From: an uncultured Clostridia bacterium
Lineage (GTDB): Bacteria; Bacillota; Clostridia; Oscillospirales; Acutalibacteraceae
Direction of reading: 5' to 3'
Length of the DNA stretch: 52,483 nt
Assembly: GCA_944380855.1 (NCBI GenBank)
Contig: CALWIW010000011.1
Location: 1-52,483, forward strand
The notes under the pieces are model-generated. The model was given only the letters and a program-made list of their open reading frames with translations, was not told where the DNA came from and searched no databases. Position numbers and translations under genes: made by a program. Below, in pieces: positions 1 through 44,245 of the stretch (the stretch's first letter is position 1; every line of letters starts with the position of its first letter).

Positions 1-141
1 TTTCTGACTGCCGACAGTTCAAGGCAATTCAGAAGCGGCGGTACTTTCCCTTAGCGTACCGCAGGCGTTGTCCGGCTGAAAGCCGTCTATCTCACTCTAA
101 TGTGAAGAATGTTATTCAGTTGTAGTCCTCTTTCAAGAGAG
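1..141 (-). ncRNA. Candidate structured RNA or leader, running off the left edge
   Basis: Downstream of a good minus-strand promoter, the transcript would fold into successive hairpins before leaving the window. Stems that can be read directly include CTCTT/AGAG near the 5' end, TTCAC/GTGAG, CGGCT/AGCCG with a three-base loop, GCGGTAC/GTACCGC (seven perfect pairs), and TTCTGA/TCAGAA enclosing GCC/GGC. Neither strand gives a convincing reading frame. The RNA could be a stand-alone non-coding RNA or the structured 5' leader of a gene outside the window. I could not match it to a named RNA family. Confidence 0.35.
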
Positions 142-146
142 ATTTT

Positions 147-175
147 ATTATATCACAAAATCCGCCGGAAAGCAA
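147..175 (-). promoter_or_regulatory. Minus-strand promoter facing the left edge
   Basis: A TTGCTT -35 (170-175) and a perfect TATAAT -10 (147-152) are separated by 17 bases. Transcription would start near position 140 and run out of the window, away from the end of the Argonaute-like gene. Confidence 0.55.
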
Positions 176-215
176 GAATTTTGCGACGGGTTTTGAATAT
201 TTGGGAGAAATAAGG

Positions 216-2018
216 TTATACTAATCTATTTGCATACTCTCTCAAATACTTAAAGGGAAATGGTAGGATTGTCAACTGTCCGTTATGAACAAATGTGACA
301 TTCATTAGCGGCAATAGTTTCTCAAACATAGGAGTTGAATCTTCAAACGGTTCAATCTTTCTTATAGTTGCTGCCCTATTGATTAACCACCGCATTCCGT
401 TCCCGATAGTGCCAACAAAATAATACTCCGATGCACCATCGCTGAACATTTTAATATCTAAACACGATGAAAGTAGTTCATCACGTTTTTCTTTGCTACG
501 CAATTTAGTGTTGCCGTTAGAGAGTTCAGCTTTGATGCTATCTATTTCAGGAATGGTAAACCATCCCGTATCTTTTATAACATTTATATTGCTTGAAGCA
601 TCTCTGATAATACCGTATACTTTCTCGGAATTTATTCTTGCATTTTCAAAAATCTCGACACATTGATTATATTTGTCGGCTTCAAATAAATTAAGAGTTT
701 GTTCCGAAACATTAAAAGTACCATTAGGATGAATAGTCATAAAAACATATTTTGTGTTTTGTTCATCTGTCAATTCAATACCAAAATCGATATCCTCTTT
801 TAATCCCAATGTACTCCAATTGAAAAGAGATATTTTTTGTTTAACAAGATCATCTTTAATTAGCATTTCGTGTATAACTGTCGAAATTGCAAATTCACTA
901 CATTCAGAAAAATCTTCAAAGGTAATATGCTGTACCGCAACATCATTAAATACTCGATGCGGATCTTCGCTATCTGCATAAAAAGCCGCATTATGTATCA
1001 CTCTGATGTTTAGATGTTCCTTTGCAATCCTTTTACCATAACTTGCTTTTATGCCGTATTTTGAGAAAAGCAAGTCACATATCTCTTTGCAAAAGATTTT
1101 AGAATATTCATCGTCAATACAGTCAACTATTTTTATTGGTTTAATATTCAAAAGATTAGATATTGCCTGTTTGTTTTCATTCGCAACAGAGCGGGTATAA
1201 TCTAATACTTTATAATTTGTAATACTTGCAAATTCAAGGTGAGCAATATCGGAAAATCTATCATTGAAGCTTTTTAAAACAGTTGTAAGAATTCCCATCT
1301 TGCTTTGATTAAAACGGTCTATATTCTGAATGTCTAAGAATGCAATTTCGGTTTTTACATTTTTAGTTTGTCGCATAATGAAACTATATCCCGTATCATC
1401 TTTCAATTTCCTGCGCAATGTGTTATGTGCCGAAAAAACATACTTGGGATATTCCTCAAATTTTTTCTTTTTAAATTCTATTTTATTACGCAACAGTTCT
1501 GAGGTGAATGTATGTACTTCCATATTCAAGCGAAATTCAGGGGATAACCTCAGTTCTAAACACGGAACTTTGAAAATAACATTTGCTTCGCTTTTTCTTC
1601 CTCTGATCAACCAATTTGGATGAAAACAGTATAAATGTCCAGTTAGGTTGTTAAATTTGAGTAACGGACTTTCATAATTCCCTAAGCTGTTAAGCATAAG
1701 TTGAAATACAATATCCTCTTTTAATGTATTTACCGCAGTCTGTGAAATAGTAATGCGGTCAGCGCCATCTTCTTTTAATATTGCATCCTTTAACAATGAT
1801 ATGTTTGAATCGTTGCTTTTCATTAGTACAAAAATCTCTCTTCCGGACTTAAAAAGCACAGAACAAACATTATTGCTCAGAAGCGGTGCATCAATAATAT
1901 ATGCTCCATTCTTAAAATGGTTCTCCGATGTACGAATGCAAAATACATCATAGTTTTTTGAAAACAATGCTTTATCAAACTTATAAGTTAGCTGATTTGT
2001 TTTAATCGGAACATTCAT
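216..2018 (-). CDS. DdmE-like protein, candidate Argonaute-like plasmid-defence subunit
   Basis: This 600-residue protein has no signal peptide or membrane segment. It is recognised by context: it is the second gene after a large helicase-nuclease whose size and architecture match DdmD, the same order as in the known DdmD-DdmE pair, where DdmE is a catalytically inactive prokaryotic Argonaute that uses DNA guides to recognise plasmids. The ATG follows AAGGTG at five to six bases and lies inside the last codons of the helicase gene (17-base overlap), so the two are translationally coupled. Visible segments include IRVIHNAAFY and VQHITFEDF near residues 335-370, and an aromatic C terminus (LPFPFKYLREY) such as Argonautes often have. 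I cannot place the MID and PIWI residues by eye. Alternatives are a pPIWI-RE-type protein or an unrelated helicase partner. Confidence 0.6.
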   Translation of the reverse strand: MNVPIKTNQLTYKFDKALFSKNYDVFCIRTSENHFKNGAYIIDAPLLSNNVCSVLFKSGREIFVLMKSNDSNISLLKDAILKEDGADRITISQTAVNTLKEDIVFQLMLNSLGNYESPLLKFNNLTGHLYCFHPNWLIRGRKSEANVIFKVPCLELRLSPEFRLNMEVHTFTSELLRNKIEFKKKKFEEYPKYVFSAHNTLRRKLKDDTGYSFIMRQTKNVKTEIAFLDIQNIDRFNQSKMGILTTVLKSFNDRFSDIAHLEFASITNYKVLDYTRSVANENKQAISNLLNIKPIKIVDCIDDEYSKIFCKEICDLLFSKYGIKASYGKRIAKEHLNIRVIHNAAFYADSEDPHRVFNDVAVQHITFEDFSECSEFAISTVIHEMLIKDDLVKQKISLFNWSTLGLKEDIDFGIELTDEQNTKYVFMTIHPNGTFNVSEQTLNLFEADKYNQCVEIFENARINSEKVYGIIRDASSNINVIKDTGWFTIPEIDSIKAELSNGNTKLRSKEKRDELLSSCLDIKMFSDGASEYYFVGTIGNGMRWLINRAATIRKIEPFEDSTPMFEKLLPLMNVTFVHNGQLTILPFPFKYLREYANRLV

Positions 2019-5000
2019 TTATACACCTTCTTATCTCGTTCCAAGCCTCTTGGTTATAGTTGAGAGAAGCGTTGCCAGTTAGCAAAGACGGAATTTCAAC
2101 AATCGTCAAATCTTTTCGTTTTATACGATGTATTTTCCATTCGTTCTCCGAAACGATGTTGACTATAATAACACATTTGCAACCGCATTTATTTGCCTTA
2201 TCTTCAATTTTATTTAGCATTTCTTCATCGTTGAAAACGGTAGTTTCGTGCCAGTTTTTAAAATCAATATAAATAGGGTATTCGCTTAATTTATAATCAA
2301 ATAATTCAAATAGTTCGGGATCGCTGATTTCCTGCATATTAAGTTTAAGCACCAACCAGAACAAATATCTGCCAACCACTTCACCCAACGCTCCTTTATA
2401 TATGTTGTTGAACAAAGTCGGAGACATAATATAATCGTTCGTCTCAAAATATGTTGCCCAACCCTTTTTCATAAAAAAGTCTTTGAGTTCAGGAATACTC
2501 ATTAAGATGTTTAGCTTTGCTGCAATATCCGAAACCTCTAAAATCAAATCCTTATTTTTAGTAAAACCGATTTGAATATTATTGTAATCTTCCTCTTGTC
2601 TGTAAAACAGACGATTATTTTTAGTGGGGAGTTTCACATAAAAATTCTTTGCAACAAAATTCTTCGATAATTCATCAGCAGACATCGTAGGTGATGTCAG
2701 CACAAGTTCACGCAACTGCTGCCATTTTTCTATCCGATCATCAGTCCAGTCTTCCCTTAACATATTGTTGATGAATTTATTAGCTCTTACAGATAAAAGG
2801 GCGGCTCTGTTTTCAAAAGAACCTTCGCCTACCTGTGCGCTTGATTCCTCTCTAACTTTATCTAACAAGGCAATAAATTCTTTGTTCAGCAATCGGTGGT
2901 TTAAAATGGAAAGGTCAATACTTTCTGCAATACGATTGTCAGCAAACACATAAATATTCTTTCTTTTTTGGTTAGTACGGCAAATACGTCCAATTGCTTG
3001 AATAATTGTTCTTGTAGAAAGAAGAACAACACTCTTGCTATTATAGACACTTTGAGCATACGGGAGTTGATAAGTGTTTCCGGTGATATAGCAGCGGAAC
3101 GCTCGTTTAATATGTTGAAATGCATCATACATAGAGAGTTCCGATGTTTCTTGTAAAAATTCAGTATGATACAAATATTTTATAAACTCCTCTTCAGAAA
3201 GATTGTTGCCCAAGTTTACCAAAAGATTGGTGGGCTTATCTAAATAAATAGCATCAAAATCTTTTTCGCCACGAGAGGGGCGATCATTGATTGTAATTAG
3301 TTCTTTTTCTAATCCACACGGAATTTCATATTGCAGGTTTTGCCCTGCGCCAATCGTTTGATAAACTGATATAACAAACAGTTTTTGACCTTCAGAAAGT
3401 TTACTGGTTATTTCGTTCTTTTTTATATCATATTCATCGCCGTCTAACTGATAAACAGATGAGTTTACGCTTATACTTGCATTGTTTTCTGCAATGATAT
3501 ACTTGAAAATCTCATCAATAACATCCTTGTTAAGATATTTGTCTCCTTTTCTTGGATGCTTTGTAAGAACGCAAAGAAAAGATTGAATATCATTATGCAT
3601 CACAAATTGCTTGTAAGCTAAAGCGATTCTAATATAGCGTTCTTTATGATAGTTATCTTTATTATCGGGCAACTCTCGTTCAATTTTTTCAAAAATCATT
3701 TCAGAAATTTCATCTGAATCAAATACTGTTTTCCAAGCGGAAGCAGAATAGTTATCTCGTACATCCCCGCCTAATAATTCAACATTTATGGACACATTAT
3801 TATATCCGCAAAGTGAATCTGAAAAATCGGAACAAAGGCGTATTTTATCAGCTTCGCTCGGCAACGAGAATGCAGTTTGTATTTTCGATTTGAGATAATC
3901 CAAATCGTAGTTCCCAATAACAGTCGGTACAGTAGCCGTTGCCGATATGCCGATAACTTTAGCTTTTTCACAAAAACGCAGAAGGATTTTTTCTGGAGTC
4001 GTCTGAAAAGAACACATCATTATTTTAGATTGCATATCGTGAACGGCGTCATCTTCAAACGAATAAAAACGGAAACCATTTTCATAAAAAGAAAGATCAA
4101 AATCGGAATTTTCTATATCGCCTTTCACCTTATGTGAAGCAATCAAAATTTGTGATGTGATATAATCAATATATGTGGAGTTGAGCCTAAACTCTGCTAA
4201 AACAGAGCGTATAGCCGATTCCATAGTAAACTCATCGTCAGCATTTTGTTTGCGTTCAGATTTGCATTGCATATAGTTTATTGCAAGTATATTGATGCCA
4301 ATTTGAAAATACTTAATAAAGCCCCGTAATTTACCGAGCATAACTTGAATATTATTCTTTTCAGCATTCGGCTTATTGGGGGAAAAACGAATAGCGTTTA
4401 TGCGATTTTTCGTGTCACTTATAGTCGTTATGTAAGAGTTATTCCCATCTAAAATTGAATGAAATTGATGATCCTGGAACAAGAAATTCTTAGTATTATC
4501 TGCAACATCTGTTGAGGTTCTATGACTGAACTGCAAGGTGTAATTTTCATATATTGTATCGGCTTTTTCTCTAATTCCGTCTATTACGGACTGTAATGGT
4601 TGATCCTTGTATTTACTTTCTTTTCTTAGCTTTGACGGCGTGGTAAGTATCGTGGGAAATTCGTTAGTATGTAATGCAGAATAAATATCCTTAAACAGCT
4701 CAATATAGTCGATTTTATCTCTTAGTCCATTTTGTATTATGTTTTTTAATAAAGTTTCTTTTGTTGCATCAAACTCGTCAATAAATATAACTGCATTATC
4801 AATAATGTCAGTATTATAGAACATATATGAAGGCTCGACAATCGTAGCGTTTCTTGTTAAAAACTTATCCATACTCATAAAAATGATTTGTTTATCACTA
4901 GTGAATACTGCAGGATATAGTTTTCCGAGCCACTGCCATCTTTTATTCGTTTTAATTGCATAAATACGTTCGTTAACTGTGGAAAATTCCTTTGCCAACA

Positions 5001-5481
5001 TTGTTTGTAGTAATTTTCTGAAATTAGGTTCTGATTTACTACGAAGGTTATCCTTTATGCTTCCGATAAAACCTCGCAGTTCAACTTTGTTTACATTCCT
5101 TTGTTCTTGCAAGAACCTTACATCTTGAACAAAGGATTTATATTCATCAGTCTTTTTGATTTCACTCGGTATTTCATTGATTATTTCACTTGTAAGACCA
5201 TCGATTACGCAATCTGCATTGGCATCTATAAAAAGAAACTTCTCATTGAATTTATCCAATTGACCCGCTTTTTCAAACCAAATTTTAAGTTCTTCCGCAG
5301 GAAGATTTTTCTTCAAAGTTGTTATAAAGAAAAATCGCCTCTTACTATTTGATTCGTCCAAGGAAGCTTCATAGATATATTTGAGGACAGAGTAAGTCTT
5401 ACCGTATCCTGTGGGCATATCAAGCAAAAACAAGCCGTTGTTATTGCCGTTATTACAGTAATTCTTAATTGCAGTATACAT
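2002..5481 (-). CDS. DdmD-like SF2 helicase-nuclease of a plasmid-defence operon
   Basis: This is a 1159-residue ATP-dependent helicase. Motif I is GYGKT (residues 25-29), the DExD box is FIDEFD (about 231), motif III is SATAT (about 510), and motif VI is QAIGRICRTNQ (about 826). The C-terminal region carries a PD-(D/E)XK-like signature: GALGE (E1034) and YIDFK (D1073, K1075). A helicase fused to a C-terminal nuclease, about 1150-1200 residues long and followed by a roughly 600-700 residue partner, fits DdmD. In the characterised Vibrio system DdmD is loaded by DdmE and unwinds and degrades plasmid DNA. The ATG has GGAG eight bases upstream. The coding sequence is AT-rich compared with the PFOR gene next door, consistent with transfer. 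Other defence helicase-nucleases remain possible. Confidence 0.65.
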   Translation of the reverse strand: MYTAIKNYCNNGNNNGLFLLDMPTGYGKTYSVLKYIYEASLDESNSKRRFFFITTLKKNLPAEELKIWFEKAGQLDKFNEKFLFIDANADCVIDGLTSEIINEIPSEIKKTDEYKSFVQDVRFLQEQRNVNKVELRGFIGSIKDNLRSKSEPNFRKLLQTMLAKEFSTVNERIYAIKTNKRWQWLGKLYPAVFTSDKQIIFMSMDKFLTRNATIVEPSYMFYNTDIIDNAVIFIDEFDATKETLLKNIIQNGLRDKIDYIELFKDIYSALHTNEFPTILTTPSKLRKESKYKDQPLQSVIDGIREKADTIYENYTLQFSHRTSTDVADNTKNFLFQDHQFHSILDGNNSYITTISDTKNRINAIRFSPNKPNAEKNNIQVMLGKLRGFIKYFQIGINILAINYMQCKSERKQNADDEFTMESAIRSVLAEFRLNSTYIDYITSQILIASHKVKGDIENSDFDLSFYENGFRFYSFEDDAVHDMQSKIMMCSFQTTPEKILLRFCEKAKVIGISATATVPTVIGNYDLDYLKSKIQTAFSLPSEADKIRLCSDFSDSLCGYNNVSINVELLGGDVRDNYSASAWKTVFDSDEISEMIFEKIERELPDNKDNYHKERYIRIALAYKQFVMHNDIQSFLCVLTKHPRKGDKYLNKDVIDEIFKYIIAENNASISVNSSVYQLDGDEYDIKKNEITSKLSEGQKLFVISVYQTIGAGQNLQYEIPCGLEKELITINDRPSRGEKDFDAIYLDKPTNLLVNLGNNLSEEEFIKYLYHTEFLQETSELSMYDAFQHIKRAFRCYITGNTYQLPYAQSVYNSKSVVLLSTRTIIQAIGRICRTNQKRKNIYVFADNRIAESIDLSILNHRLLNKEFIALLDKVREESSAQVGEGSFENRAALLSVRANKFINNMLREDWTDDRIEKWQQLRELVLTSPTMSADELSKNFVAKNFYVKLPTKNNRLFYRQEEDYNNIQIGFTKNKDLILEVSDIAAKLNILMSIPELKDFFMKKGWATYFETNDYIMSPTLFNNIYKGALGEVVGRYLFWLVLKLNMQEISDPELFELFDYKLSEYPIYIDFKNWHETTVFNDEEMLNKIEDKANKCGCKCVIIVNIVSENEWKIHRIKRKDLTIVEIPSLLTGNASLNYNQEAWNEIRRCINECSD

Positions 5482-5533: not shown

Positions 5534-5539
5534 ATTATA
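5534..5539 (-). promoter_or_regulatory. Probable -10 element of the ddmDE-like operon
   Basis: A perfect TATAAT lies about 52 bases upstream of the helicase start codon. No convincing -35 hexamer is seen at the right distance, so the promoter may be weak or need an activator. Confidence 0.35.
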
Positions 5540-5569
5540 CCATATAATCGTGTTTTTTCTATTACTTTT

Positions 5570-5622: not shown

Positions 5623-5994
5623 TCAGTTATAAATTATATCGTGGTTTACAATTTCCGTAGCGCTGTTGCGGATGTTGTTCATCTGAGCGATCCATTCCAT
5701 TTGGTTGTTTGCTTTGAGTTTTTCTGTCACGCCCTCACGATCTGCTATCTGTTCCACCAGCCGAAAAAACAATTCTTCTGCTTGCCGATCAATATCTGCA
5801 AGATAGCCATTCAGTGTGCCGCTTGTAAGCAGATTCGTGTAAAACACTTTACGGTGCTGTTTGAGATAGCGCAAATGCCGCTGTCCCCATATCCCTATGG
5901 GCTTATTTTCTTCGGTGGGTAGTACAAGGTCAGGCAAATAGTAATCGCCTTGCAGCGTATAAGTGCCGCCCATCTGTTCAAATAATGATTTCAT
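5623..5994 (-). CDS. tnpV: TnpV family transposon-encoded protein
   Basis: This 123-residue protein starts MKSLFEQMGGTYT and contains YYLPDLVLP and IGIWGQRHLRYLKQHRKVFY, the typical pattern of TnpV proteins carried by Tn4451/CTn-like mobilisable elements of Clostridia. The biochemical role of TnpV is not established. The reading frame stays open upstream to 6069, but the ATG at 5994 is preferred because a GGAGGA ribosome binding site precedes it and family members begin at this point. No recombinase or mobilisation gene is visible nearby, so this is either a remnant or one end of an element whose other parts lie elsewhere. It suggests that the adjacent defence operon arrived on a mobile element. 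Confidence 0.85.
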   Translation of the reverse strand: MKSLFEQMGGTYTLQGDYYLPDLVLPTEENKPIGIWGQRHLRYLKQHRKVFYTNLLTSGTLNGYLADIDRQAEELFFRLVEQIADREGVTEKLKANNQMEWIAQMNNIRNSATEIVNHDIIYN

Positions 5995-6145
5995 TGCAGT
6001 TTCCTCCAAATTCAGTTTTAGATTTTTCTGCAATATACCGTCTCGATTGTCTTTACCACTTGTTTTCAAAACCTTCGTTACGGAACCTCATCATTTGGGA
6101 GAACCGCCCTAATTTATGACTTATATTTATTGTTCAGTACAAATA

Positions 6146-9100
6146 TCAGCCCAAATCAAGCTCTGCAAGCTTTGAAAGATGCTCGTACTTCTTCTCTGCG
6201 TACTCCTCTGCCTTCTCGAAGAGCTTTTCTGCTCTATCCGGGAATGCACGGCTGAGTGCGTTGTAACGAACTTCGCCCATGATGAAGTCACGGTAAGAAG
6301 CTGTCGGAGCCTTGCTGTCCAGCATGAACGGATTCTTGCCTTCGTCTGCAAGTCTTGGGTCATATCTGAAGCAGTTCCAGTAACCTGCATCTACTGCCTT
6401 CTTCTCTTCCTGCTGAGCAATGCTCATGCCGCCCTTAATACCGTGGTTGATACATGGAGCGTAGCAGATGAGGATTGAAGGACCGTCGTAGCTTTCAGCC
6501 TCTGTAAATGCCTTGATGCACTGGTTGTAGTCAGCACCCATTGCTACCTGAGCAACGTATACATAGCCGTAGCTCATAGCAATTGCAGCAAGGTCTTTCT
6601 TCTTTGTAGCCTTACCTGCTGCTGCGAACTGTGCAACAGAACCGATTGGTGTAGCCTTAGAAGCCTGTCCGCCTGTATTTGAGTAAACCTCTGTATCGAA
6701 TACGAGGATATTTACATTCTCACCGGATGCGATAACGTGGTCAAGTCCGCCGAAGCCGATATCGTATGCCCAGCCGTCGCCGCCGAGGATCCACATGGAC
6801 TTCTTAGCAAGGCTGTCTTTGTCGATAAGTGTCTTCTTAGCAAGCTGGCCTGCTTCGCAGTCGCAGTCTTTGATGCTCTCGAGCTTCTCAATAAGAGCGT
6901 CAGCAGCAATTCTGCTTTCACCTGAGTTGCCGAGAGTTGCAAGGTAGTTGCTGCAAGCTTCCTTAACACTTGCGTCCTCTACCAATTCTTCAATCTTAGA
7001 AACATACTCGCAGAGTCTGTTTCTGATAGCCTTCTGGCCGAGAGCCATACCGAGACCGAACTCAGCGTTGTCCTCGAAGAGGCTGTTATGCCATGCAGGG
7101 CCGTGACCCTTCTTGTTTACTGTGTAAGGAGTTGCAGGTGCAGAACCGCCCCAAATTGAAGAACATCCTGTTGCGTTAGCAATGAACATTCTGTCACCGA
7201 AGAGCTGTGTAGCAAGCTTTGCATATGGTGTTTCACCGCAGCCTGCACAAGCACCGGAGAACTCGAGGAGAGGCTGTTTGAACTGGCTGCCCTTAACTGT
7301 GGACTCAGCAAACTTGTCGAGAACCTCTGGCTTTGTATCGAGCTTGAAGCCATAGTCGAAGAGCTTCTGTCCTGCTCTCTGAGTATCGATTGGCTTCATT
7401 GTAAGAGCCTTGTTGCCCTTCTTGCCCGGGCATACCTGAGCACAAGCACCGCAGCCTGTGCAGTCGAGGGTTGATACTGTCATAACGAAGTTGAGACCCT
7501 TCAAACCGATCATAGCGGCTGACTTTGTGTTTTCAGGAGCAGCTGCAAGCTCTTCGTCTGTCATAGGAACAGGACGGATTACAGCGTGCGGACATACAAA
7601 TGAGCAGCGGTTACACTGTACGCAGTTTTCAGGATTCCACTCTGGAACGTCAACTGCAATACCTCTCTTCTCGTAAGCGGAAGAACCCTGTGGGAATGTA
7701 CCGTCTACATAATCCATAAATGCAGATACAGGGAGCTTGTTGCCCTTGTAAGCATTTACAGGGTGAAGAACAGTATTTACATACTTAACAACGTCTGCTC
7801 TGTCGCCCTCTGCACAATATGCAGCAGCGTCGTCAACGCAGTTAGCCCAGTCAGCAGGAACTTCAACCTTCTTAAGATCTGACATACCTCTTTCGATAGC
7901 AGCGTGGTTCATGTCAACGATAGCCTGACCCTTCTTGGAGTAAGACTTTGTTGCAGCGTCCTTCATGTACTGCTTTGCTTCGTCAGCAGGAATAATGTCT
8001 GCAATCTTAAAGAATGCGGACTGAAGAATTGTATTGATACGGCCGCCCAGTCCGATTTCCTTACCGATAGCGATACCGTCGATTGTGTAAAGATTTATCT
8101 TCTTGTCAGCGATGAGCTTCTTCATCTTGCCGGGGAGTCTCTGTGAAAGCTCTTCAACGTCCCAACCGCAGTTGAGAAGGAAGCTGCCGCCCTCTTTGAG
8201 GTCCTCTACCATCTCGTACTTGTCAACGTATGATGGGTTGTGGCAAGCAACGAAGTCAGCCTTGCTGATGTAATATGTTGATTTAATTGGCTGGTTACCG
8301 AATCTCAAGTGAGAAACTGTGATACCGCCGGACTTCTTTGAGTCATATGCAAAATATCCCTGAGCATACATATCTGTATGGTCACCGATAATCTTGATGG
8401 AGTTCTTGTTAGCACCAACAGTACCGTCAGCACCAAGACCCCAGAACTTACAGGAACGTGTACCTGCAGGAGTTGTGTCAGGATTTTCAACAACAGGAAG
8501 TGAGAGATTTGTAACGTCGTCTACGATACCGATTGTAAATCTCTTCTTAGGTGTTGCACTCTGAGCGTTTCTGTAAACAGCAACGATGTCGCCAGGAGTT
8601 GTATCCTTAGAAGCAAGACCGTATCTGCCTGTAAATACCTTTACGTTTGCGAAATCAGAACCGTTGATAGCAGCCAAAACGTCAAGATAGAGAGGCTCGC
8701 CGATTGAACCAGGCTCTTTTGTTCTGTCGAGAACAGAAATTGTCTTAACTGTCTTTGGAAGCTCGCTGAGGAGATAATCAGCAACGAAAGGTCTGTAAAG
8801 TCTAACCTTAAGGAGACCAACCTTCTCGCCTGCTGCGTTGAGGTAATCAACAACTTCTTCTGTAGCATCGCAAACAGAACCCATAGCAACGATAACGTGC
8901 TCTGCGTCCTCTGCACCGTAATAGTTGAACGGCTTGTAATCTGTGCCGAGCTTTGCGTTGATTTTATTCATGTACTCAACAACAACCTCTGGAATTGCGT
9001 CGTAGTACTTGTTGCAAGCCTCACGAGCCTGGAAGAAGATATCGTCGTTCTGAGCTGTACCTCTGATTACAGGGTGCTCAGGGTTAAGGCTGCGGCGACG

Positions 9101-9715
9101 GAATGCTTCAACTGCGTCCCAGTCGAGGAGCTCGCCGAGATCCTCATAATCCCATACAGCAATCTTCTGAATTTCGTGAGAAGTTCTGAAACCGTCGAAG
9201 AAGTGAAGGAATGGAACTCTGCCCTTGATTGCAGAAAGGTGAGCAACTGCTGCAAGGTCCATAATTTCTTGCGGGCTGTTTGAGCAAAGCATTGCATAAC
9301 CTGTCTGACGGCAAGCATAAATATCGGAATGGTCACCGAAAATAGAAAGTGCATGGCTTGTGAGAGCACGAGCTGAAACGTGGATAACGCTTGGGAGCAG
9401 CTCACCTGCCATTTTATACATATTCGGAATCATAAGAAGCAAGCCCTGAGAAGCTGTGTAAGTAGTTGTCAGAGCACCTGCTGTTAAAGAACCGTGAACA
9501 GCACCTGCAGCACCGCCTTCGGACTGCATCTCTGTTACCTGAACCTCTCTGCCGAAAAGATTTTTCTTTCCTGTTGCAGAGAACTTGTCTGTTTCGTCAG
9601 CCATAACGGATGACGGAGTGATAGGATAGATAGCAGCAACGTCTGTGAAGGCATATGATACATATGCGGCAGCATTGTTACCATCCATGGTCTTCATTTT
9701 TCTGGATATTGCCAT
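6146..9715 (-). CDS. nifJ: Pyruvate:ferredoxin (flavodoxin) oxidoreductase
   Basis: This 1189-residue single-chain PFOR oxidises pyruvate and CoA to acetyl-CoA and CO2, reducing ferredoxin in the cytoplasm of anaerobes. Domain order follows the family: the N-terminal transketolase-like pyrimidine domain (YPITPSSVMAD near residue 35), the TKC domain, a ferredoxin domain with CVQCNRCSFVCP (about 700) and CTGCGACAQVCP (about 750), the CAGCGETPY cluster-proximal segment (about 820), and the TPP site GGDGWAYDIGFGG (about 975). Length is typical. The ATG has AAGGAGGAAG upstream. The gene has its own promoter and is transcribed divergently from the CBS-domain gene. No clear terminator is seen between its stop codon and tnpV. 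Confidence 0.97.
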   Translation of the reverse strand: MAISRKMKTMDGNNAAAYVSYAFTDVAAIYPITPSSVMADETDKFSATGKKNLFGREVQVTEMQSEGGAAGAVHGSLTAGALTTTYTASQGLLLMIPNMYKMAGELLPSVIHVSARALTSHALSIFGDHSDIYACRQTGYAMLCSNSPQEIMDLAAVAHLSAIKGRVPFLHFFDGFRTSHEIQKIAVWDYEDLGELLDWDAVEAFRRRSLNPEHPVIRGTAQNDDIFFQAREACNKYYDAIPEVVVEYMNKINAKLGTDYKPFNYYGAEDAEHVIVAMGSVCDATEEVVDYLNAAGEKVGLLKVRLYRPFVADYLLSELPKTVKTISVLDRTKEPGSIGEPLYLDVLAAINGSDFANVKVFTGRYGLASKDTTPGDIVAVYRNAQSATPKKRFTIGIVDDVTNLSLPVVENPDTTPAGTRSCKFWGLGADGTVGANKNSIKIIGDHTDMYAQGYFAYDSKKSGGITVSHLRFGNQPIKSTYYISKADFVACHNPSYVDKYEMVEDLKEGGSFLLNCGWDVEELSQRLPGKMKKLIADKKINLYTIDGIAIGKEIGLGGRINTILQSAFFKIADIIPADEAKQYMKDAATKSYSKKGQAIVDMNHAAIERGMSDLKKVEVPADWANCVDDAAAYCAEGDRADVVKYVNTVLHPVNAYKGNKLPVSAFMDYVDGTFPQGSSAYEKRGIAVDVPEWNPENCVQCNRCSFVCPHAVIRPVPMTDEELAAAPENTKSAAMIGLKGLNFVMTVSTLDCTGCGACAQVCPGKKGNKALTMKPIDTQRAGQKLFDYGFKLDTKPEVLDKFAESTVKGSQFKQPLLEFSGACAGCGETPYAKLATQLFGDRMFIANATGCSSIWGGSAPATPYTVNKKGHGPAWHNSLFEDNAEFGLGMALGQKAIRNRLCEYVSKIEELVEDASVKEACSNYLATLGNSGESRIAADALIEKLESIKDCDCEAGQLAKKTLIDKDSLAKKSMWILGGDGWAYDIGFGGLDHVIASGENVNILVFDTEVYSNTGGQASKATPIGSVAQFAAAGKATKKKDLAAIAMSYGYVYVAQVAMGADYNQCIKAFTEAESYDGPSILICYAPCINHGIKGGMSIAQQEEKKAVDAGYWNCFRYDPRLADEGKNPFMLDSKAPTASYRDFIMGEVRYNALSRAFPDRAEKLFEKAEEYAEKKYEHLSKLAELDLG

Positions 9716-9803
9716 TGGAAACTTCCTCCTTAAAATAATACCTTTTTTCCAACCGGGTTAAGGTACATTTCATGTAAACTCTGATGCCCAGTGTTTCATT
9801 AAG

Positions 9804-9832
9804 ATAATAACACTTTTTTCCCCAATTGTAAA
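9804..9832 (-). promoter_or_regulatory. Promoter of nifJ
   Basis: TTTACA (9827-9832) and TATTAT (9804-9809) are spaced by exactly 17 bases on the minus strand. This gives a leader of about 80 bases before the nifJ start codon. Confidence 0.7.
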
Positions 9833-9852
9833 GTGAAAATAAAAATTATGGT

Positions 9853-9881
9853 TTGACATTTTATCAATTTTTCTGTAAAAT
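9853..9881 (+). promoter_or_regulatory. Promoter of the CBS-domain gene
   Basis: TTGACA (9853-9858) and TAAAAT (9876-9881) with a 17-base spacer face the plus strand, back to back with the nifJ promoter. Confidence 0.7.
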
Positions 9882-10004
9882 CTATTGTTAGAACAGTATA
9901 TTGCACTTAAGAGACTTTTATCTTAAAAAAGCCGGCAATTTCCCGTTCTTTCAAGGGATATTCTCCCAAATACACTTTATAACAAACCGAAAGGATGAAA
10001 GAAA

Positions 10005-34477: not shown

Positions 34478-36268
34478 TTAACGGACAGTCTCTTTTTTCA
34501 GCTTTTCAAGTTCCTTTAAAGTATTTTCATAGTTCTCGTCAATATTTAAATTAAAACGAACCCTGCGTCCCCCGTTGTCAATTGCAGTCAAATCAAGTCT
34601 GCCGGTATTCATATAGTCAAACTCCACATATGGTGCTGACTCAAAGTCCTTTTTCAAAGCTTCAAGGAAAGGTGTGAAATCAGCATCTGATGAAGTTATA
34701 ACCATGCTTGTATCAGCGGAATAATATTCAATGGTTTCCAATCGGACATCCTCACTAAAAAAGTTTCCGGCAAGCTCTTTTTTATAATCGGAAGATGTCA
34801 TAATTTTTTCAAGAACATCCTGAGCAAAAGGCGGTATCTCTCCTCTTTGATATTCTCTTACAAGATGACTTCCGTTTTTAAGGGTATAGTCTATTCGGAA
34901 ACTATAAAACCTTGCGTCTTTATCCTGTGCTTCACCCATTTTTTCCTGCTTATTTAAATTATAGGGAAAACCGTATACGGAATTCAGGTTATCGACTATT
35001 CCTTTGTGAGTGCTTTGGACAGTTTTAATGATATTCTCATCTTCAAAATACACTCCCGCTTCTGTTCCGAATCTATTATCTGTATAATAAGAATATCTTC
35101 CGTGTGTATCTTCCATATGAATTTTAACTCCCTGAATATCCTCAACATCAGGAACACGGCTTACATATCCAAAACCCCCGGTGATAACGGAAAAATATAT
35201 TACACAAACTATAACAAAGGAAACCGCAGCCTGAATAAGGTTTTTCAAAAATCCTTTTGCCCCTCTGAAATAAATAATATGGAGAAAAAAATTACAGGAA
35301 AAGACACCTATTGCCGCACCAAGCACAAACCACAGATAGAAAAGATCCAGCTTAACTCCCATAGAGTTAAAAATCAAGCCAAGACCGATACCGCTTACAA
35401 CTGCGGCAAACACCTTGATTATAAATGACGGTATGCTGAATGCAAAAGCGTTTTGTGCCATCTCCGCACGTCTTTTCCTGATAAGCAGGAACGAACCAAC
35501 CATGCAGAGAACAATAAAAATCAGCCACCATACTATATGTATTGTCTGATACATTGAATAGTCCGAAGAGTCCATATAAGCATAGATTCCCGCAAATTGG
35601 GAGACAAACGGCACAAGAGCGGTAATAAGGGTAACGCTGATATTATTTGAAACATATCCGGGAAGTATCATATCCGGCAGAAAATATATAAGACCCCAAG
35701 CCATTGGATAAATTATCGATATTACGCAGTAGGAAATAATTGCGTCAACGGTTGTGCCGCAGCAAACAGAAAGCAATGCCGCAAAGGAAATATTGCTTAC
35801 GATTGCCAAAACAAGCATCATAAAGCTTGTAAACAACACATAAAAATTCACTTGATAAAGTCTGATTAACGCACCCAATAACGTCATAAAAAGTATGGGA
35901 ACAATGCTCATTACAAGCGATGCCAAATATTTTGAAGCAAACATACTTCTCCTTGACATCGGAAAGGAAAAGTACCAGTCCACGCTTGTTTTTTTCTGCA
36001 TATATGAAAAATTGATAAAAGATATTACCACAGAAAAAATTATTCCGGTAGCTGCAAACAGCGTATTATATAAAGAAAACTCAAAAGTGGTTTTGTCGAA
36101 GGACATCGACATATTGTTCACCGCATAGAAAACACTTACCATAGGAAAAGTAAGGAAAAGAATTATAGAATAAATTATAAGGGTATACTTATATTTTTTA
36201 ATTGTCCACCACATTACGGAAAGAGTTTTTCCTAAAGTGCTGTTGTTATTTAATGTTTTCGATGTCAT
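34478..36268 (-). CDS. ABC transporter permease of a YtrA-linked system
   Basis: This 596-residue protein has several N-terminal membrane segments (about residues 20-330; for example YTLIIYSIILFLTFPMVSVF) and one near 345, then about 210 residues of extracytoplasmic domain starting SRVPDVEDIQG. The ATG at 36268 is preferred over one at 36289, which would include the GGAGGTGG ribosome binding site in the coding sequence. It overlaps the ATPase gene by 23 bases. With the ATPase and GntR regulator it forms a YtrABC-like exporter. Such systems respond to cell-wall-active compounds, but the substrate here is unknown. Confidence 0.8.
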   Translation of the reverse strand: MTSKTLNNNSTLGKTLSVMWWTIKKYKYTLIIYSIILFLTFPMVSVFYAVNNMSMSFDKTTFEFSLYNTLFAATGIIFSVVISFINFSYMQKKTSVDWYFSFPMSRRSMFASKYLASLVMSIVPILFMTLLGALIRLYQVNFYVLFTSFMMLVLAIVSNISFAALLSVCCGTTVDAIISYCVISIIYPMAWGLIYFLPDMILPGYVSNNISVTLITALVPFVSQFAGIYAYMDSSDYSMYQTIHIVWWLIFIVLCMVGSFLLIRKRRAEMAQNAFAFSIPSFIIKVFAAVVSGIGLGLIFNSMGVKLDLFYLWFVLGAAIGVFSCNFFLHIIYFRGAKGFLKNLIQAAVSFVIVCVIYFSVITGGFGYVSRVPDVEDIQGVKIHMEDTHGRYSYYTDNRFGTEAGVYFEDENIIKTVQSTHKGIVDNLNSVYGFPYNLNKQEKMGEAQDKDARFYSFRIDYTLKNGSHLVREYQRGEIPPFAQDVLEKIMTSSDYKKELAGNFFSEDVRLETIEYYSADTSMVITSSDADFTPFLEALKKDFESAPYVEFDYMNTGRLDLTAIDNGGRRVRFNLNIDENYENTLKELEKLKKETVR

Positions 36269-37145
36269 AACCTGCCACCTCCATTTCACACATAAAAATT
36301 TCTTCCAAAGTTAAAGGCAAAGCTTCCATAAAAACAGGGTTTTGTGCCTTTATTCTTCTTTCAATAGTCTCTTTATCTCCCCTTGCTGTAAAGTTTAAAA
36401 GACTTCCGCTTCTCTTTATGCTCAGTATATCAAGACCGTTTATAACATCGTCCTGTATAAAGTCACCGTCAAAGGCGGCTTGGAATTTGTGAACCTGAGA
36501 TTTTATTTCGTCCACGTCGTCCTCTGCCACAAGATTTCCTTTATGAAGAAAAGCTATATGGTCGCATATGTCCTCAAGCTCTCTCATATTGTGAGAAGCA
36601 ATAATAACAGACATTCCCCTGTCGCTTACGTCAGCAATAATAAGCTGTTTTACAAGTCTGCGGATAACAGGGTCAAGACCGTCAAATATTTCATCAAGCA
36701 AAAGATACTGCGGTCTTGAGGAAAGTGCCAGTATCAAAGACGCCTGCCTTTGCATACCCTTTGACATATTTATAAGCTTTGCTCTCCTGTTTATAGGAAA
36801 CAGCGAGCAAAGTTTTAAGTAGGTTTCCTCGCTCCAGTTTGCGTACACCTTGCTGAGCAAGGCTGAAATATTATCAAGTGTAGAATTGTTATAAAAAAAC
36901 GGAACATCAGCCACAAAATAAATTTTGTTTTTAAGTTCAGTATTTTCAAATACATCTTTTCCGTCTATAAGCACCTTTCCTGCCGTAGGCTTATAGACTC
37001 CCGAAACCGTTCTCAAAAGAGTAGATTTTCCGCTTCCGTTTGAACCCACAAGGGCAAAAACCGAGCCTTCCCCAACCTGAAAGTTAAGCTTTTTTAAGGC
37101 GACATTTTTGTCAAAAGCTTTTGACAGATTTTTTATCTCAATCAT
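36246..37145 (-). CDS. ABC transporter ATP-binding protein
   Basis: This 299-residue ATPase has Walker A GSNGSGKST (34-42), an ABC signature of the form NMSKGMQRQ, and Walker B LLLDEIFDGLDP. The signature departs from the usual LSGGQ but is common in YtrB-type proteins. The C-terminal 80 residues form an accessory domain. The start overlaps the regulator's stop codon by four bases (ATGA), and the permease start overlaps its end. It powers the adjacent permease; direction is probably export. Confidence 0.92.
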   Translation of the reverse strand: MIEIKNLSKAFDKNVALKKLNFQVGEGSVFALVGSNGSGKSTLLRTVSGVYKPTAGKVLIDGKDVFENTELKNKIYFVADVPFFYNNSTLDNISALLSKVYANWSEETYLKLCSLFPINRRAKLINMSKGMQRQASLILALSSRPQYLLLDEIFDGLDPVIRRLVKQLIIADVSDRGMSVIIASHNMRELEDICDHIAFLHKGNLVAEDDVDEIKSQVHKFQAAFDGDFIQDDVINGLDILSIKRSGSLLNFTARGDKETIERRIKAQNPVFMEALPLTLEEIFMCEMEVAGYDIENIK

Positions 37146-37663: not shown

Positions 37664-38941
37664 TTATGAATTAAAAATAAATTTTCCTGCACCTGCGATA
37701 CATTCCGCTGTTTTCTCTATGTCCTCATCTGTATGAGCGTAGGACACAAACATAGCCTCAAACTGAGACGGAGCTATATATATTCCCTTTTCCAGCATAT
37801 AAGAAAAATATTCGGCGTACTTCTCCGTATCGCTTGAAAGAGCATCATCGTAGGTCTGAACCTTTTTGTCCGTAAAGAAAGGACAAAGGAGAGAACCAAC
37901 CCGGTTTACATTAAATCCGCTGTCCTTAAAGGCTTTTTCCAAAATATCGGATTTCCTTTCAATCTCTGAATATATATCTTTATTCTCTTTGAGAATTTTC
38001 AGCGTTTCAATTCCTGCTGTAACGGCAATCGGATTTCCCGACAAAGTTCCCGCCTGATAAACCTTTCCCACGGGAGCTACCTTTTCCATTATATCGCGTC
38101 TGCCGCCGTAAACAGCCAAAGGCATACCGCCTCCTGCGATTTTTCCCAAGGTGGTCAAATCCGGCTTAACCCCGTAGTACTCCTGAGCACCGCCCGGGGA
38201 AAGTCTGAAGCCTGTTATAACCTCGTCAAAAATAAGAAGTATTCCGTTTTCCTCCGTAAGCTTTCTAAGCTCCTTTAAAAAGCCTTTTTTCGGGGGAACA
38301 ACACCCATATTTGCCGCGGCAGGCTCTATAATAACGCAGGCAATCTCGCCCTTATTGCTTTCTATAAGCCTTTCCACAGAAGAAATATCGTTGTATTCCG
38401 CAACAAGCGTATCCCTTGTGCAGTTTTCGGGAACGCCTGATCCCGAGGGAATTGACTGGGTCAAAAGTCCCGAGCCTGCCTTTACCAGCATACAATCGGA
38501 ATGGCCGTGGTAACAGCCGTTAAACTTTATAACCTTGTTTTTTCCGGTAAAGCCTCTTGCTGTTCGGATAACGCTCATTACCGCCTCGGTTCCCGAGTTT
38601 ACCAATCTCAGCATTTCCATTGACGGCATCAAAGATGATATAAGCTTTGCAAGCTCTGTTTCCTTTTCCGTAGGTGCTCCGAAGGTCAATCCGTGCTCAC
38701 AGGCTTTCTGCACCGCCTTAATAACCCGAGGGTGTGCATGACCGAGTATTCCCGGGCCCCATGAACAGACAAAATCCACATAGGAATTGCCGTCAGCGTC
38801 AAAGATATGACCCTCCTTTCCGCTTTTTATAAACAAAGGCTCTCTTTTTACCGCCTGAAAAGCCCTTACGGGACTGTTGACCCCTCCGGGCATATATTTT
38901 TTCGCCTCGTTAAAAAGGCTGTGGGATTTTTCATAAATCAA
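37664..38941 (-). CDS. hemL: Glutamate-1-semialdehyde 2,1-aminomutase
   Basis: This 425-residue PLP enzyme isomerises glutamate-1-semialdehyde to 5-aminolevulinate. PGGVNSPVRAF near the N terminus, NSGTEAVMSVIRTARG, and the PLP lysine in GKIAGGGMPLAVYGG (about 265) identify it. The start is TTG, supported by AGGGTG eight bases upstream and by the family-like N terminus (MIYEKSHSLFNEAKKYM). Last gene of the hem operon, 32 bases after hemB. It works directly after HemA, the first gene product. Confidence 0.96.
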   Translation of the reverse strand: MIYEKSHSLFNEAKKYMPGGVNSPVRAFQAVKREPLFIKSGKEGHIFDADGNSYVDFVCSWGPGILGHAHPRVIKAVQKACEHGLTFGAPTEKETELAKLISSLMPSMEMLRLVNSGTEAVMSVIRTARGFTGKNKVIKFNGCYHGHSDCMLVKAGSGLLTQSIPSGSGVPENCTRDTLVAEYNDISSVERLIESNKGEIACVIIEPAAANMGVVPPKKGFLKELRKLTEENGILLIFDEVITGFRLSPGGAQEYYGVKPDLTTLGKIAGGGMPLAVYGGRRDIMEKVAPVGKVYQAGTLSGNPIAVTAGIETLKILKENKDIYSEIERKSDILEKAFKDSGFNVNRVGSLLCPFFTDKKVQTYDDALSSDTEKYAEYFSYMLEKGIYIAPSQFEAMFVSYAHTDEDIEKTAECIAGAGKFIFNS

Positions 38942-38973
38942 CTTGTTTCACCCTTAATTAAAATAAAAACAAA

Positions 38974-39957
38974 TCAGTCTTTTTGAATTTTTAAAGACTC
39001 TTCAAGCCATTTTGCCGCATCAAGTGCATGGTAGGTTATTATAATGTTTGCTCCAGCACGCTTAATGGCGTAAAGATTTTCAAGTACTATTTTCTTTTCG
39101 TCAATCCAGCCGGCAAGGGACGCCGACTTTACCATGGCGTATTCTCCGCTTACATTGTAGGCGGCAACAGGAACGTCAAATCTTTGTGAAACCTCTTTTA
39201 TCACATCAAGATAAGCCAAAGCAGGCTTTACCATAACAATATCCGCACCCTCTACGATATCCGAGGATATTTCTCTTATTGCCTCTTTAACGTTGGCAAA
39301 ATCCATCTGATATGTTTTTCTGTCGCCGAACTTAGGTGCAGAATGAGCGGCGTCTCTGAAAGGTCCGTAATATGCGGAAGCATATTTGGCACTGTAGGAC
39401 ATAATAGGAGTATCCTTAAAGTTATTGTTGTCAAGAACTTTTCTTATATACTCAACTCTGCCGTCCATCATATCAGAGGGAGCAACCATATCTGCACCTG
39501 CCTGAACACAGGTCAACGCCATTTCAGCAAGGTACGGAAGAGTTTCATCGTTTAAAATTTTATCATCTTTTACAAGACCGCAGTGTCCGTGGCTCGTATA
39601 TGCACAAAGACAGATATCCGCAATAATCACAATTTCAGGATAATTATTCTTTATATATTTAATTCCTTTTTGAGCAATTCCGTCCCAGCGGTAAGCCTCA
39701 CTTCCCTTTGCGTCCTTACGGGCAGGAACACCGAAAATCATAACACCGCCTATTCCCGACTTTACAACCTTATCCATAATTTCGCCTAGTCTGTCCACGG
39801 AATACTGATACACGCCGGGCATAGAGGGGACTTCCTCTTTAATACCTCTTCCCTCTGTTACAAAAATAGGGTAGACAAGCTCTGACGGAAGCACAGTGGT
39901 TTCTCTCACAAGGCTTCTTATTGCACTGTTCTGTCTTAATCTTCTATTTCTGTTCAT
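38974..39957 (-). CDS. hemB: Porphobilinogen synthase (5-aminolevulinate dehydratase)
   Basis: This 327-residue HemB condenses two 5-aminolevulinate molecules. The catalytic lysines are K191 (SAKYASAYYGPF) and K244 (VKPALAYLD). The zinc-type cysteine cluster is intact (ICLCAYTSHGHCG), so this is a zinc-dependent form rather than the Asp-type magnesium form. The ATG overlaps the cobA-hemD stop codon by four bases. Confidence 0.97.
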   Translation of the reverse strand: MNRNRRLRQNSAIRSLVRETTVLPSELVYPIFVTEGRGIKEEVPSMPGVYQYSVDRLGEIMDKVVKSGIGGVMIFGVPARKDAKGSEAYRWDGIAQKGIKYIKNNYPEIVIIADICLCAYTSHGHCGLVKDDKILNDETLPYLAEMALTCVQAGADMVAPSDMMDGRVEYIRKVLDNNNFKDTPIMSYSAKYASAYYGPFRDAAHSAPKFGDRKTYQMDFANVKEAIREISSDIVEGADIVMVKPALAYLDVIKEVSQRFDVPVAAYNVSGEYAMVKSASLAGWIDEKKIVLENLYAIKRAGANIIITYHALDAAKWLEESLKIQKD

Positions 39958-41513
39958 AGCAACTCTCCTTTACAGGCGAAAGCTATCTTAACAGCCTCTG
40001 CCAAACCTTTACAGCTAAACTTTTTTGCTGTTATTATTTCCATATTTCCAACCAAATCTTTGTATTTATCTATTTCCTTTTTTGTTTCCTCGCCTATACA
40101 TATGATTTTTGTATTGTCGGAAAAACACTCCAAAGGATTTTTAAGCTCTTCAAAAAATATTTTTACCGATGAACCGCTTGAAAAGGTAACGCAGTCAAAT
40201 TTTTTATTGTTCTCACTATTCTCAAAAGCTTCTATTGCTTTTTTGTCCGGCTCTACGCTGTAGGTGCATATGTCGTCAAAGTCAAAGCCATTTTCCCTAA
40301 GGATTTCACCCAAAGCCTTTGACCCCTTTGCACTTCTGAACGCCACGGCAATTTTTTTATTTATCCCGCTGTTTTCGGCGTCAGCGACAATTTCCTTTGC
40401 CAGCTCCGAAACGGTAAATTTTTTCGGAACAATATCGGGAAATATACCGTATTTTGCAAGCTTTTCCGCCGTACCCTTACCTACTGCGGCAATTTTTGTT
40501 CCGTATAGCTTTCTTACGTCAACACCGTATCTGTTAAGCAGTTCAAAAAACACCTGAACACCGTTAGGTGATGTAAAAACAGTATAACATTCCTTGAAAA
40601 GTTTTTCAATTCCCTTTGTAAACTCATATTCACAATCGGCAATATTTATTTTTGACAAATTCAAATTTTTTACATTAAGTTTTGTGTTTTTTAGTTCTTT
40701 TGACAGTTTTTCCGTGTGACCGGAAGTTCCTGTTATCAGCAATTTTTTACAGACTTTATTTTCCTTTTTCCCCGAAAAACCGCAGTCCGCCGTTTCACCT
40801 ATAACAATAACCGCCGGAGATTCCATGCGGTTTTCCTCTGCGTCCTTACAGGCGTTTTTCAAAGTGGTTTTAATAACCTTTTGATTTTCCCTGCATCCGT
40901 TGGATATTATCGCCGCCGGCATATTTTCAGAAACTCCGCAGTCAGTAAGTGTTTTTGTGATATAGTCAAGCAGGCTCAGACCCATTAAAACCACCAAGGT
41001 TCCTCCCGACAGAGCAAAACCCTCAAGGACCTTTCTGTCCAAGGGCTCTCCGTTGGATTTTCTTGCGGTAACCACATGAAAGCTTCTGCTTATATCCCTG
41101 TGGGTAACGGGGATTCCGACCCTTTCTGGAACAGCAATACACGAGCTTATACCCGTCACAACCTCATAGGGTATATTTTCCTTTTCCAAAGCTTCGGCTT
41201 CTTCTCCTCCTCTGCCGAAAACAAAGGGATCGCCCCCTTTAAGCCTTACGACAGCTTTTCCCTCCAAGGCTTTTTGGCAAATTATTTTGTTAATGTCATT
41301 TTGCAGGAAAGATGATTTGCCGTACCTTTTGCCAACATAAATTTTTTCGCAGTCAGATGGGGCAAAGCTTAAAATATCCTCCTCCACAAGGCTGTCGTAT
41401 ACAAGAACCTGACAGTTCTTTATACATTCAAGAGCCTTTAATGTCAAAAGCTCACTGCCTCCGCAGCCTGCACCCACAAGATATACAAAACCTTTTTGTA
41501 TTTTACCGCTCAT
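39954..41513 (-). CDS. Fusion of uroporphyrinogen-III C-methyltransferase and uroporphyrinogen-III synthase
   Basis: This 519-residue fusion has a CobA/SUMT domain at residues 5-245 (VGAGCGGSELLTLKA, VRLKGGDPFVFGRGGEE, GTLVVLMGLS) and a HemD domain after about 260 (VFTSPNGVQVFFE, AVGKGTAEKLA, VTFSSGSSVKIFFE). It makes uroporphyrinogen III and methylates it to precorrin-2, the branch to siroheme and cobalamin. The fusion is known in Clostridia and relatives. The ATG at 41513 has AGAGG at good distance; a GTG at 41531 that overlaps the hemC stop (GTGA) is the alternative. hemB follows with a four-base overlap. Confidence 0.94.
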   Translation of the reverse strand: MSGKIQKGFVYLVGAGCGGSELLTLKALECIKNCQVLVYDSLVEEDILSFAPSDCEKIYVGKRYGKSSFLQNDINKIICQKALEGKAVVRLKGGDPFVFGRGGEEAEALEKENIPYEVVTGISSCIAVPERVGIPVTHRDISRSFHVVTARKSNGEPLDRKVLEGFALSGGTLVVLMGLSLLDYITKTLTDCGVSENMPAAIISNGCRENQKVIKTTLKNACKDAEENRMESPAVIVIGETADCGFSGKKENKVCKKLLITGTSGHTEKLSKELKNTKLNVKNLNLSKINIADCEYEFTKGIEKLFKECYTVFTSPNGVQVFFELLNRYGVDVRKLYGTKIAAVGKGTAEKLAKYGIFPDIVPKKFTVSELAKEIVADAENSGINKKIAVAFRSAKGSKALGEILRENGFDFDDICTYSVEPDKKAIEAFENSENNKKFDCVTFSSGSSVKIFFEELKNPLECFSDNTKIICIGEETKKEIDKYKDLVGNMEIITAKKFSCKGLAEAVKIAFACKGELL

Positions 41514-41527
41514 AAAATTATCCTCTG

Positions 41528-42394: not shown

Positions 42395-43029
42395 TTTCCC
42401 CCGCCTATGTATTTTTTCATTATCCTGTTGGCAAGCATTACGGACTCTTTTTGGTCGCCGTCCTCGTATACAAGGGCATTAAAAACCTCTTTTAAAAACT
42501 CCGCTCTTATATCTCCGCTTCGTATAAATCTCTTTGCGTTTTTTCTCTGGTTATACATAATATCTATGATATTATCAAGTTTTTCACCGTCAAGCTCATC
42601 AAACTTTCTGCGAAGATAAGCGGCACATATTGGACTTTTTCCCTCTGTGGTAAAAGCCGCAGTATAGTTTCTTCCCTTTGAAAGAGAGGGAAAAATAAAA
42701 GTGCATTTGTTTATGTCGTCCACCACATTTACGGGAATATTCTTTTCACTGCAAAGGTCGTAAATATGGCTGTTTAAATAATCGTTGTCCGTGGCGGCAA
42801 TTACAAAGGCACAGCTCTCTATATCCGAATCCATAAACTGGTGATATATAAGCTCAACTCTGCTTTTGATTTCTTCCTTATAAAAACCGTCGCAAAACTT
42901 TTTCGAGCATATTTTTATTTTGCAGTCAAAAAGCAGCAGCTTTTCAACCTTTCTCAGGGCAACCTCTCCGCCTCCCACAACAAGACACAGCTTATCCGTT
43001 ACGTTCATAAAAAACGGAAAATAGCTCAT
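42391..43029 (-). CDS. Precorrin-2 dehydrogenase (siroheme synthase N-terminal type)
   Basis: This 212-residue protein matches Met8p/CysG-N/SirC proteins that oxidise precorrin-2 to sirohydrochlorin with NAD+, some also inserting iron. The Rossmann motif is LVVGGGEVALRKVEKLL (about residues 16-32), followed by FVIAATDNDYLN and SKGRNYTAAFTTEGKSPICAAYLRRK. It overlaps hemA and hemC by four bases on each side. Whether it also chelates iron is not visible. Confidence 0.9.
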   Translation of the reverse strand: MSYFPFFMNVTDKLCLVVGGGEVALRKVEKLLLFDCKIKICSKKFCDGFYKEEIKSRVELIYHQFMDSDIESCAFVIAATDNDYLNSHIYDLCSEKNIPVNVVDDINKCTFIFPSLSKGRNYTAAFTTEGKSPICAAYLRRKFDELDGEKLDNIIDIMYNQRKNAKRFIRSGDIRAEFLKEVFNALVYEDGDQKESVMLANRIMKKYIGGGK

Positions 43030-44171: not shown

Positions 44172-44245
44172 TAAAATTCCCACCCAAAGCAAATTCTGCA
44201 TAATTTAAACCGTATAAATTTAAAACCGTGTTTGATATTATTCTA

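Follow-up and report, generated by a model that had tools for sequence, protein, structure and literature searches.

A DdmDE-type operon with a short-PIWI DdmE on a contig of an uncultured Clostridia bacterium

A two-gene operon at one end of a 52,483-nucleotide stretch of DNA from an uncultured Clostridia bacterium (contig CALWIW010000011.1) raises the question whether it encodes a DdmDE plasmid-elimination system and, if so, how such a system manages with a DdmE of 600 aa. The whole stretch, referred to as the window, is the entire contig C11 of assembly G000 (1.89 Mb, 86% complete). A first-pass annotation, made from the letters alone, had proposed a clostridial DdmDE relative with a possibly reduced Argonaute, and the clostridial origin fits its 99.7% identical copy L018, a record labelled uncultured Clostridia. 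Not many systems are known to remove plasmids; DdmDE is one of them. The solved structures of DdmE that we found come from two species, both with DdmE of a long type. From a natural, conserved DdmE of roughly 600 aa one would learn what part of PIWI can be spared; such a DdmE provides a smaller protein for biochemistry and allows one to ask whether the missing subdomain is a contact for DdmD. Carriage near mobilization genes would fit competition between mobile elements, and some of the relatives come from gut samples, judging by their record titles. We conclude, with a probability of roughly 0.88, that the window encodes a short-PIWI-type DdmDE, which is probably the cargo of a mobilizable element and would act by the mechanism of its family.

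Identity of the two operon genes

Both open reading frames start with ATG, and their coordinates (Table 1) bear out the protein sizes of 1159 and 600 aa and the 17-base overlap given by the first-pass annotation. An overlap of this length also occurs in the loci L015, L016, L018 and L022 (loci, genomes and contigs are referred to by L, G and C numbers), and GGAG and AAGGTG can be read by eye a few bases 5′ of the two ATGs. From the overlap we infer that ddmD and ddmE may be translationally coupled.

The 1159-aa protein matches the DdmD family of PADLOC over residues 226–1118 (2.3e-42). A better match of the helicase to another defence family was looked for in PADLOC and none was found, the next-best families being of the DinG and Cas3 types with 2.6e-5 at best. 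Since homology to the solved DdmD of L. casei (PDB 9ix4) spans residues 7–1135 (3.8e-66), the likeness to DdmD is not due to chance; V. cholerae DdmD in PDB matches residues 288–1121 (about 1e-36). The helicase motifs of superfamily 2 (SF2) and the C-terminal nuclease pattern already recognized at first reading are present, namely TGYGKT (24–29), DEFD (235–238), SATAT (513–517) and QAIGRICR (828–835), followed by the nuclease residues E1034, D1073 and K1075. When 57 DdmD rows, among them the window, are aligned, these three nuclease residues are identical in every row, as are D235-E236-F237-D238, S513, A514, Q828, G831, R832 and R835. The Walker residues T24, G27 and K28 are found in 56 rows, one row being gapped there, and the remaining motif positions vary somewhat.

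The 600-aa protein had been described as having no obvious motif. This holds for Pfam, PADLOC and NCBIfam, in which no family was found, but a single-sequence search of PDB matches it to L. casei DdmE (7.3e-16). A 31-member DdmE family profile detects the DdmEs of L. casei (5.2e-67) and V. cholerae (6.7e-43), and the four distinct PDB sequences with E below 1 are every one DdmE. An AlphaFold2 model, whose alignments took in 31 of the 39 DdmEs described in the next section, reached a mean predicted local distance difference test (pLDDT) of 88.3 and a predicted template modelling score (pTM) of 0.85. When this model was searched with Foldseek, the top six hits were DdmE chains (4.8e-33 to 3.7e-19), the best being 9ixm with a template modelling (TM) score of 0.76 by query length, followed by the Marinitoga, human, Piwi, Arabidopsis and Thermus Argonautes. 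The predicted structure thus shows the MID/PIWI fold of an Argonaute, with homology to known DdmEs, and the structural check suggested by the first-pass annotation brought no refutation. On the predicted PIWI strands b1 (410–417) and b4 (467–473), none of the columns has acidic residues in as many as 70% of the 35 rows compared. Judged in this way, by strand and not by superposition, the protein is in keeping with a catalytically inactive Argonaute, as had been proposed for the partner.

Relative to L014, the ratio of nonsynonymous to synonymous substitution rates (dN/dS) amounts to 0.24 in DdmD and 0.28 in DdmE, showing purifying selection on both gene sequences in this one usable comparison. 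The frame of ddmE is open, and its product keeps the conserved C-terminus PFPFKYLRE.

The gene order, ddmD followed by ddmE, is the proposed one and recurs in L009, L010 and L012. The DdmDE of L. casei (9ix4, 9ixm, 9iw3), also a Bacillota species, shares with the window the DdmD homology described above as well as homology and fold of DdmE, whereas its DdmE has 715 aa with a long PIWI segment that the window protein lacks. The V. cholerae system (8u0u, 8u0j, 8u3k, 9ezy, 9bgk) is likewise related through DdmD homology and through the profile and fold of DdmE, but its DdmE chains have 677–690 aa and the long segment. Upstream of ddmDE, a WYL-type gene is reported in V. cholerae (PMC12409362), while tnpV is found there in the window. 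The operon is a Firmicutes relative of DdmDE, as proposed, but it is less new than the first-pass annotation implied, because the L. casei structures had already been solved; the corresponding paper (Huang et al. 2024 Cell Res) is an entry in the reference list of PMC12409362.

The short PIWI region of DdmE

Scanning genome contigs with the DdmD alignment yielded at least 59 loci. Among the matches listed, 60 loci have a DdmD match, 46 of them together with a DdmE match. Ten of these 46 were excluded because they were cut, broken or shorter than 480 aa (L013, L030, L038, L039, L040, L045, L065, L067, L069, L071), and the remaining 36 together with the window, L009 and L012 form a set of 39 DdmEs, which contains the near-copies window/L018, L051/L056, L053/L060 and L061/L062. 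The stretch equivalent to residues 490–505 of the window DdmE is bimodal in this set, with 11–17 residues in 16 proteins, 83–145 residues in 23 and none in between. With 16 residues, the window DdmE is short and lacks a stretch that is present in its relatives of G177, G072 and a Nostoc plasmid; the G177 protein, 36% identical to it, is of the long form, which the two solved DdmEs also follow in alignment.

In a model of a long DdmE from Carnobacterium (L054; mean pLDDT 86.7), the extra residues, which lie at 498–566, are predicted to form a strand (499–501), two helices (502–515, 519–531), a second strand (537–539) and two further helices (540–546, 550–564); the additional 70 or so residues of the long type are, in this prediction, a helical subdomain. 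The window model has a helix at 492–500 and then a helix at 509–515. Therefore, a compact block of about 70 residues is missing from the PIWI region, the suspected reduced Argonaute architecture was correct, and the complete PIWI architecture of the solved DdmEs was not found in the window protein. We take the missing block as a variant trait and not as a defining feature of DdmDE. Conservation of the long segment in 21 long rows is 0.33, that of the adjoining helix 0.31 and that of other regions 0.42–0.54. Its net charge ranges from −5 to +3 in the 23 long rows and, since it is near neutral, a protein-contacting or structural part is likelier than a DNA grip. A search for a part of DdmD lost alongside the PIWI segment found none, the only differences being two in single columns.

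The DdmE of 600 aa does not stand alone as a truncation. L018 is 99.7% identical over window positions 1–3704 and L014 has a DdmE 72% identical to that of the window; both DdmEs are short. L018 stems from another assembly, because it continues into sequence not found in G000, so that the short form, seen there and in L014, is not an assembly error.

In a quick DdmD tree (all trees were midpoint-rooted), the window lies in a clade of 11 rows with a support of 99 in the Shimodaira-Hasegawa-like approximate likelihood ratio test (SH-aLRT). It consists of ten short-type systems, including L014–L016, L019–L022, L024 and L034, and of L017, where the contig stops 79 bases past ddmD. Members are Bacillota records (Clostridia, Lachnospiraceae, Ruminococcus and one labelled Erysipelotrichaceae), one Fibrobacteraceae record (L021) and one metagenome-assembled genome of an Alphaproteobacterium (L024). 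Best-segment identity to the window DdmD is 48–76% in the Bacillota records, 42% in L021 and 38% in L024. Elsewhere in the tree lie two more groups of the short type, L051/L056/L070 and L052/L058. The short group needs three changes on this tree, at least two of them required by well-supported branches; long-branch warnings apply to the tree. On a DdmE tree calculated without the columns of the trait itself, two changes suffice; a single short clade appears in 7% of 200 bootstrap trees and was not rejected by the approximately unbiased (AU) test (p-AU 0.311). As short rows lie among long ones, loss, once or a few times, is the simpler reading of these sequences.

Mobile context, mechanism and competing readings

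The operon is patchily distributed. In every tally the window's own genome is counted. Of 98 related genomes, 2 gave a DdmE, one being the window's own and the other a genome from a different family; at order level, DdmE turned up in 3 of 394 genomes. DdmD turned up in 3 of 391 genomes at class level and in 3 of 398 at phylum level. Within 72,556 plasmid records, DdmE occurs in one and DdmD in five. Pattern scans of viral contigs gave no relative of either protein, and phage records, in which DdmE was not searched, gave no relative of DdmD. The guanine-cytosine content is 33–34% in the operon versus 41% in window positions 6146–52483, which, together with the patchy spread, is as expected of acquired cargo. 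Past ddmE, L018 continues into a NikA-like gene and a gene for a MobA/VirD2 relaxase; this mobilization region has no near match among plasmid records. In other copies, a relaxase and a WYL regulator are nearby (G072), a type IV coupling protein lies near DdmDE (L034) or a phage-type integrase is found (L016). In the window, the mobile-element gene tnpV stands beside the operon. By this context, the operon is probably the cargo of a mobilizable element.

According to PMC12409362, DdmE is a long inactive Argonaute that uses DNA guides and recruits an autoinhibited, dimeric DdmD, which moves 5′–3′ on single-stranded DNA, and the known activity of DdmDE is directed at plasmids. Extended from the family to the window, this suggests that the 600-aa DdmE, as a non-cutting Argonaute, would load a short DNA guide, pair it with plasmid DNA and recruit DdmD. 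The latter would load on the displaced strand, travel along it by its SF2 motor and cut it with its PD-(D/E)XK nuclease, with loss of the plasmid as the result. The helical PIWI subdomain of long DdmEs, some 70 residues, would be dispensable in the window's lineage. Several points weigh against this interpretation. Should the subdomain that is missing here bind DNA or DdmD in the solved structures, the mechanism may be a different one. The contig stops 215 bp past ddmE, and the operon may have a third gene. Only one dN/dS pair is usable, most others being saturated in synonymous changes and L018 having too few changes. Finally, a search of the window's own draft for the L018 mobilization genes came up empty, and just 305 bases of the L018 stretch match there, at the contig end, so that mobile carriage of the window copy itself is an extrapolation.

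Among the competing explanations, the one to be taken most seriously, although we consider it unlikely, is that the operon is a true DdmDE relative whose main targets are other mobile elements, such as conjugative elements or phages, and which serves its carrier in competition with them. The mobilization genes, relaxase, coupling protein and integrase described above are what would be expected in this case. However, mobile carriage alone names no target, the family activity known from PMC12409362 is against plasmids, and the related ApsAB was inactive against eight phages (PMC11096173).

A changed recruitment or gating, with guide, target or DdmD held differently without the helical subdomain, also appears rather improbable. 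A discrete subdomain that is absent in an all-or-none manner, near neutral in charge when present, speaks for it; on the other hand, DdmD shows no matching gain or loss, and the weak conservation of the segment in long rows fits a dispensable part as well.

A very improbable reading is that decay or mis-assembly has given the 600-aa DdmE an internal deletion and that the operon is dying. The protein does have about 70 residues fewer than both solved DdmEs and the G177 relative, but the same length state is found in 16 of 39 DdmEs including L018 and L014, the fold is predicted with confidence, and the low dN/dS and the open frame with its intact C-terminus do not fit decay.

Lastly, ApsAB of Escherichia coli ST38 is an anti-plasmid system linked to DdmD-like proteins, ApsA and DdmD lying within one broad family, and it combines, like the window, an SF2 helicase with a PD-(D/E)XK nuclease and an Argonaute-like partner (PMC11096173). 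Nevertheless, membership of the window in the ApsAB branch can practically be dismissed, by description and not by tree: ApsA is longer than the 1159-aa DdmD, with a DELH box instead of DEFD and its nuclease at residues 1420–1435 instead of 1034–1075; ApsB is reported to lack a PIWI fold and to have a MID guide motif (Y-x3-K-xn-QG-xn-K) not found in the window DdmE, where the half-motif Y-x3-K occurs at residue 12 only; and the window partner matches DdmE by sequence and fold.

DdmD loci without DdmE and neighbouring genes

Fourteen of the 60 DdmD loci among the matches listed have no DdmE match. In five of them (L017, L026, L042, L048, L049), the contig ends 0–232 bases after DdmD. Eight others (L035, L036, L037, L044, L050, L055, L057, L059) continue for 2.5–7 kb; their DdmD homologues keep the catalytic residues, and the DdmE profile found nothing in the draft genomes of these eight loci and of L042, while three of three controls were found. 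Genes for type I, D12 and C5 methyltransferases directly follow DdmD in L035, L037 and L044, and type I restriction genes lie further downstream in L059.

It is conceivable, although doubtful, that short-PIWI DdmE forms a separate functional class of DdmDE, in which DdmD is recruited or gated without the helical subdomain, as part of a broader modularity of DdmD, which would work with a full, a reduced or no DdmE (none in two DdmD lineages, of which several members lie by DNA methyltransferase genes). A literature search, with the main mechanistic papers lying outside it, gave no description of DdmEs with a short PIWI as a class, nor of a DdmD lacking its DdmE partner; such silence is a weak sign of novelty.

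Upstream of the DdmE-less DdmD in L050 (5690–6940) and L057 (5693–6943), a gene for a 416-aa protein ends about 25 bases before ddmD. The protein has no Pfam family, the L057 copy gives a weak PADLOC match to PDC-S51 (2.2e-5), and it is possibly another partner of DdmD. In Ignatzschineria (L072, 5471–12922), a distant DdmD-like protein of 1516 aa with a DEFD box is followed by a 927-aa partner, to which the DdmE profile gave no match. This locus might be ApsAB-like or a third type; it was examined as a possible ApsAB and not assigned.

Table 1. Positions of the operon and adjoining features in the window.
Feature	Position	Strand	Basis
ddmD, SF2 helicase with C-terminal PD-(D/E)XK nuclease (E1034, D1073, K1075)	2002..5481	-	PADLOC, 9ix4, 57-row motifs
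ddmE, short-PIWI type, Argonaute fold without conserved PIWI catalytic acids	216..2018	-	profile, AlphaFold2, Foldseek
ddmD/ddmE overlap, 17 bases	2002..2018	-	ORF (open reading frame) coordinates
Codons of DdmE residues 490–505 (16 residues; long-type DdmEs 83–145)	504..551	-	DdmE alignment
Candidate promoter TAGAAA-N16-TATAAT, TG before second hexamer, upstream of ddmD	5534..5561	-	consensus match only
TnpV, transposon-encoded protein, adjoins operon upstream	5623..6069	-	PF14198, 5.3e-49
Stretch downstream of ddmE, continues in L018 into mobilization genes	1..215	-	L018 nucleotide match

Promoter-type matches such as the candidate of Table 1 number 28 in the region against 24.8 (standard deviation 5.4) in shuffles, i.e., not above expectation. 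In G072, a gene for a WYL-domain regulator (L010, 9976–10971) lies directly upstream of ddmD, and the same gene is found in G621. The short-type loci L016 (4467–6982) and L034 (3773–6341) share a protein of 709/714 aa and a NUDIX-type protein, directly or closely upstream of ddmD. The larger protein is a Schlafen group 3 helicase in L016, and the L034 copy is alike by eye; the window does not have this pair upstream of its ddmD.

The gene upstream of the operon (window 6156–9893), which we take to be PFOR, lies in a stretch 95% identical to G001 of the same genus, and the match diverges at window position 6156. An empty insertion site in G001 could not be demonstrated, as the G001 stretch following PFOR matches G000 elsewhere (C19, 76%). 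Because of this match to C19, gene order differs between G001 and G000, and the comparison of both genomes did not give the left border of the element. The stretch 6156–9893 itself appears to be an unusually conserved or exchanged region with respect to G001. Further away, at 34478–36289, the window encodes a protein of 603 aa for which Pfam gave no family at E ≤ 1e-5; genes of tetrapyrrole biosynthesis (37664–44201) are close by.

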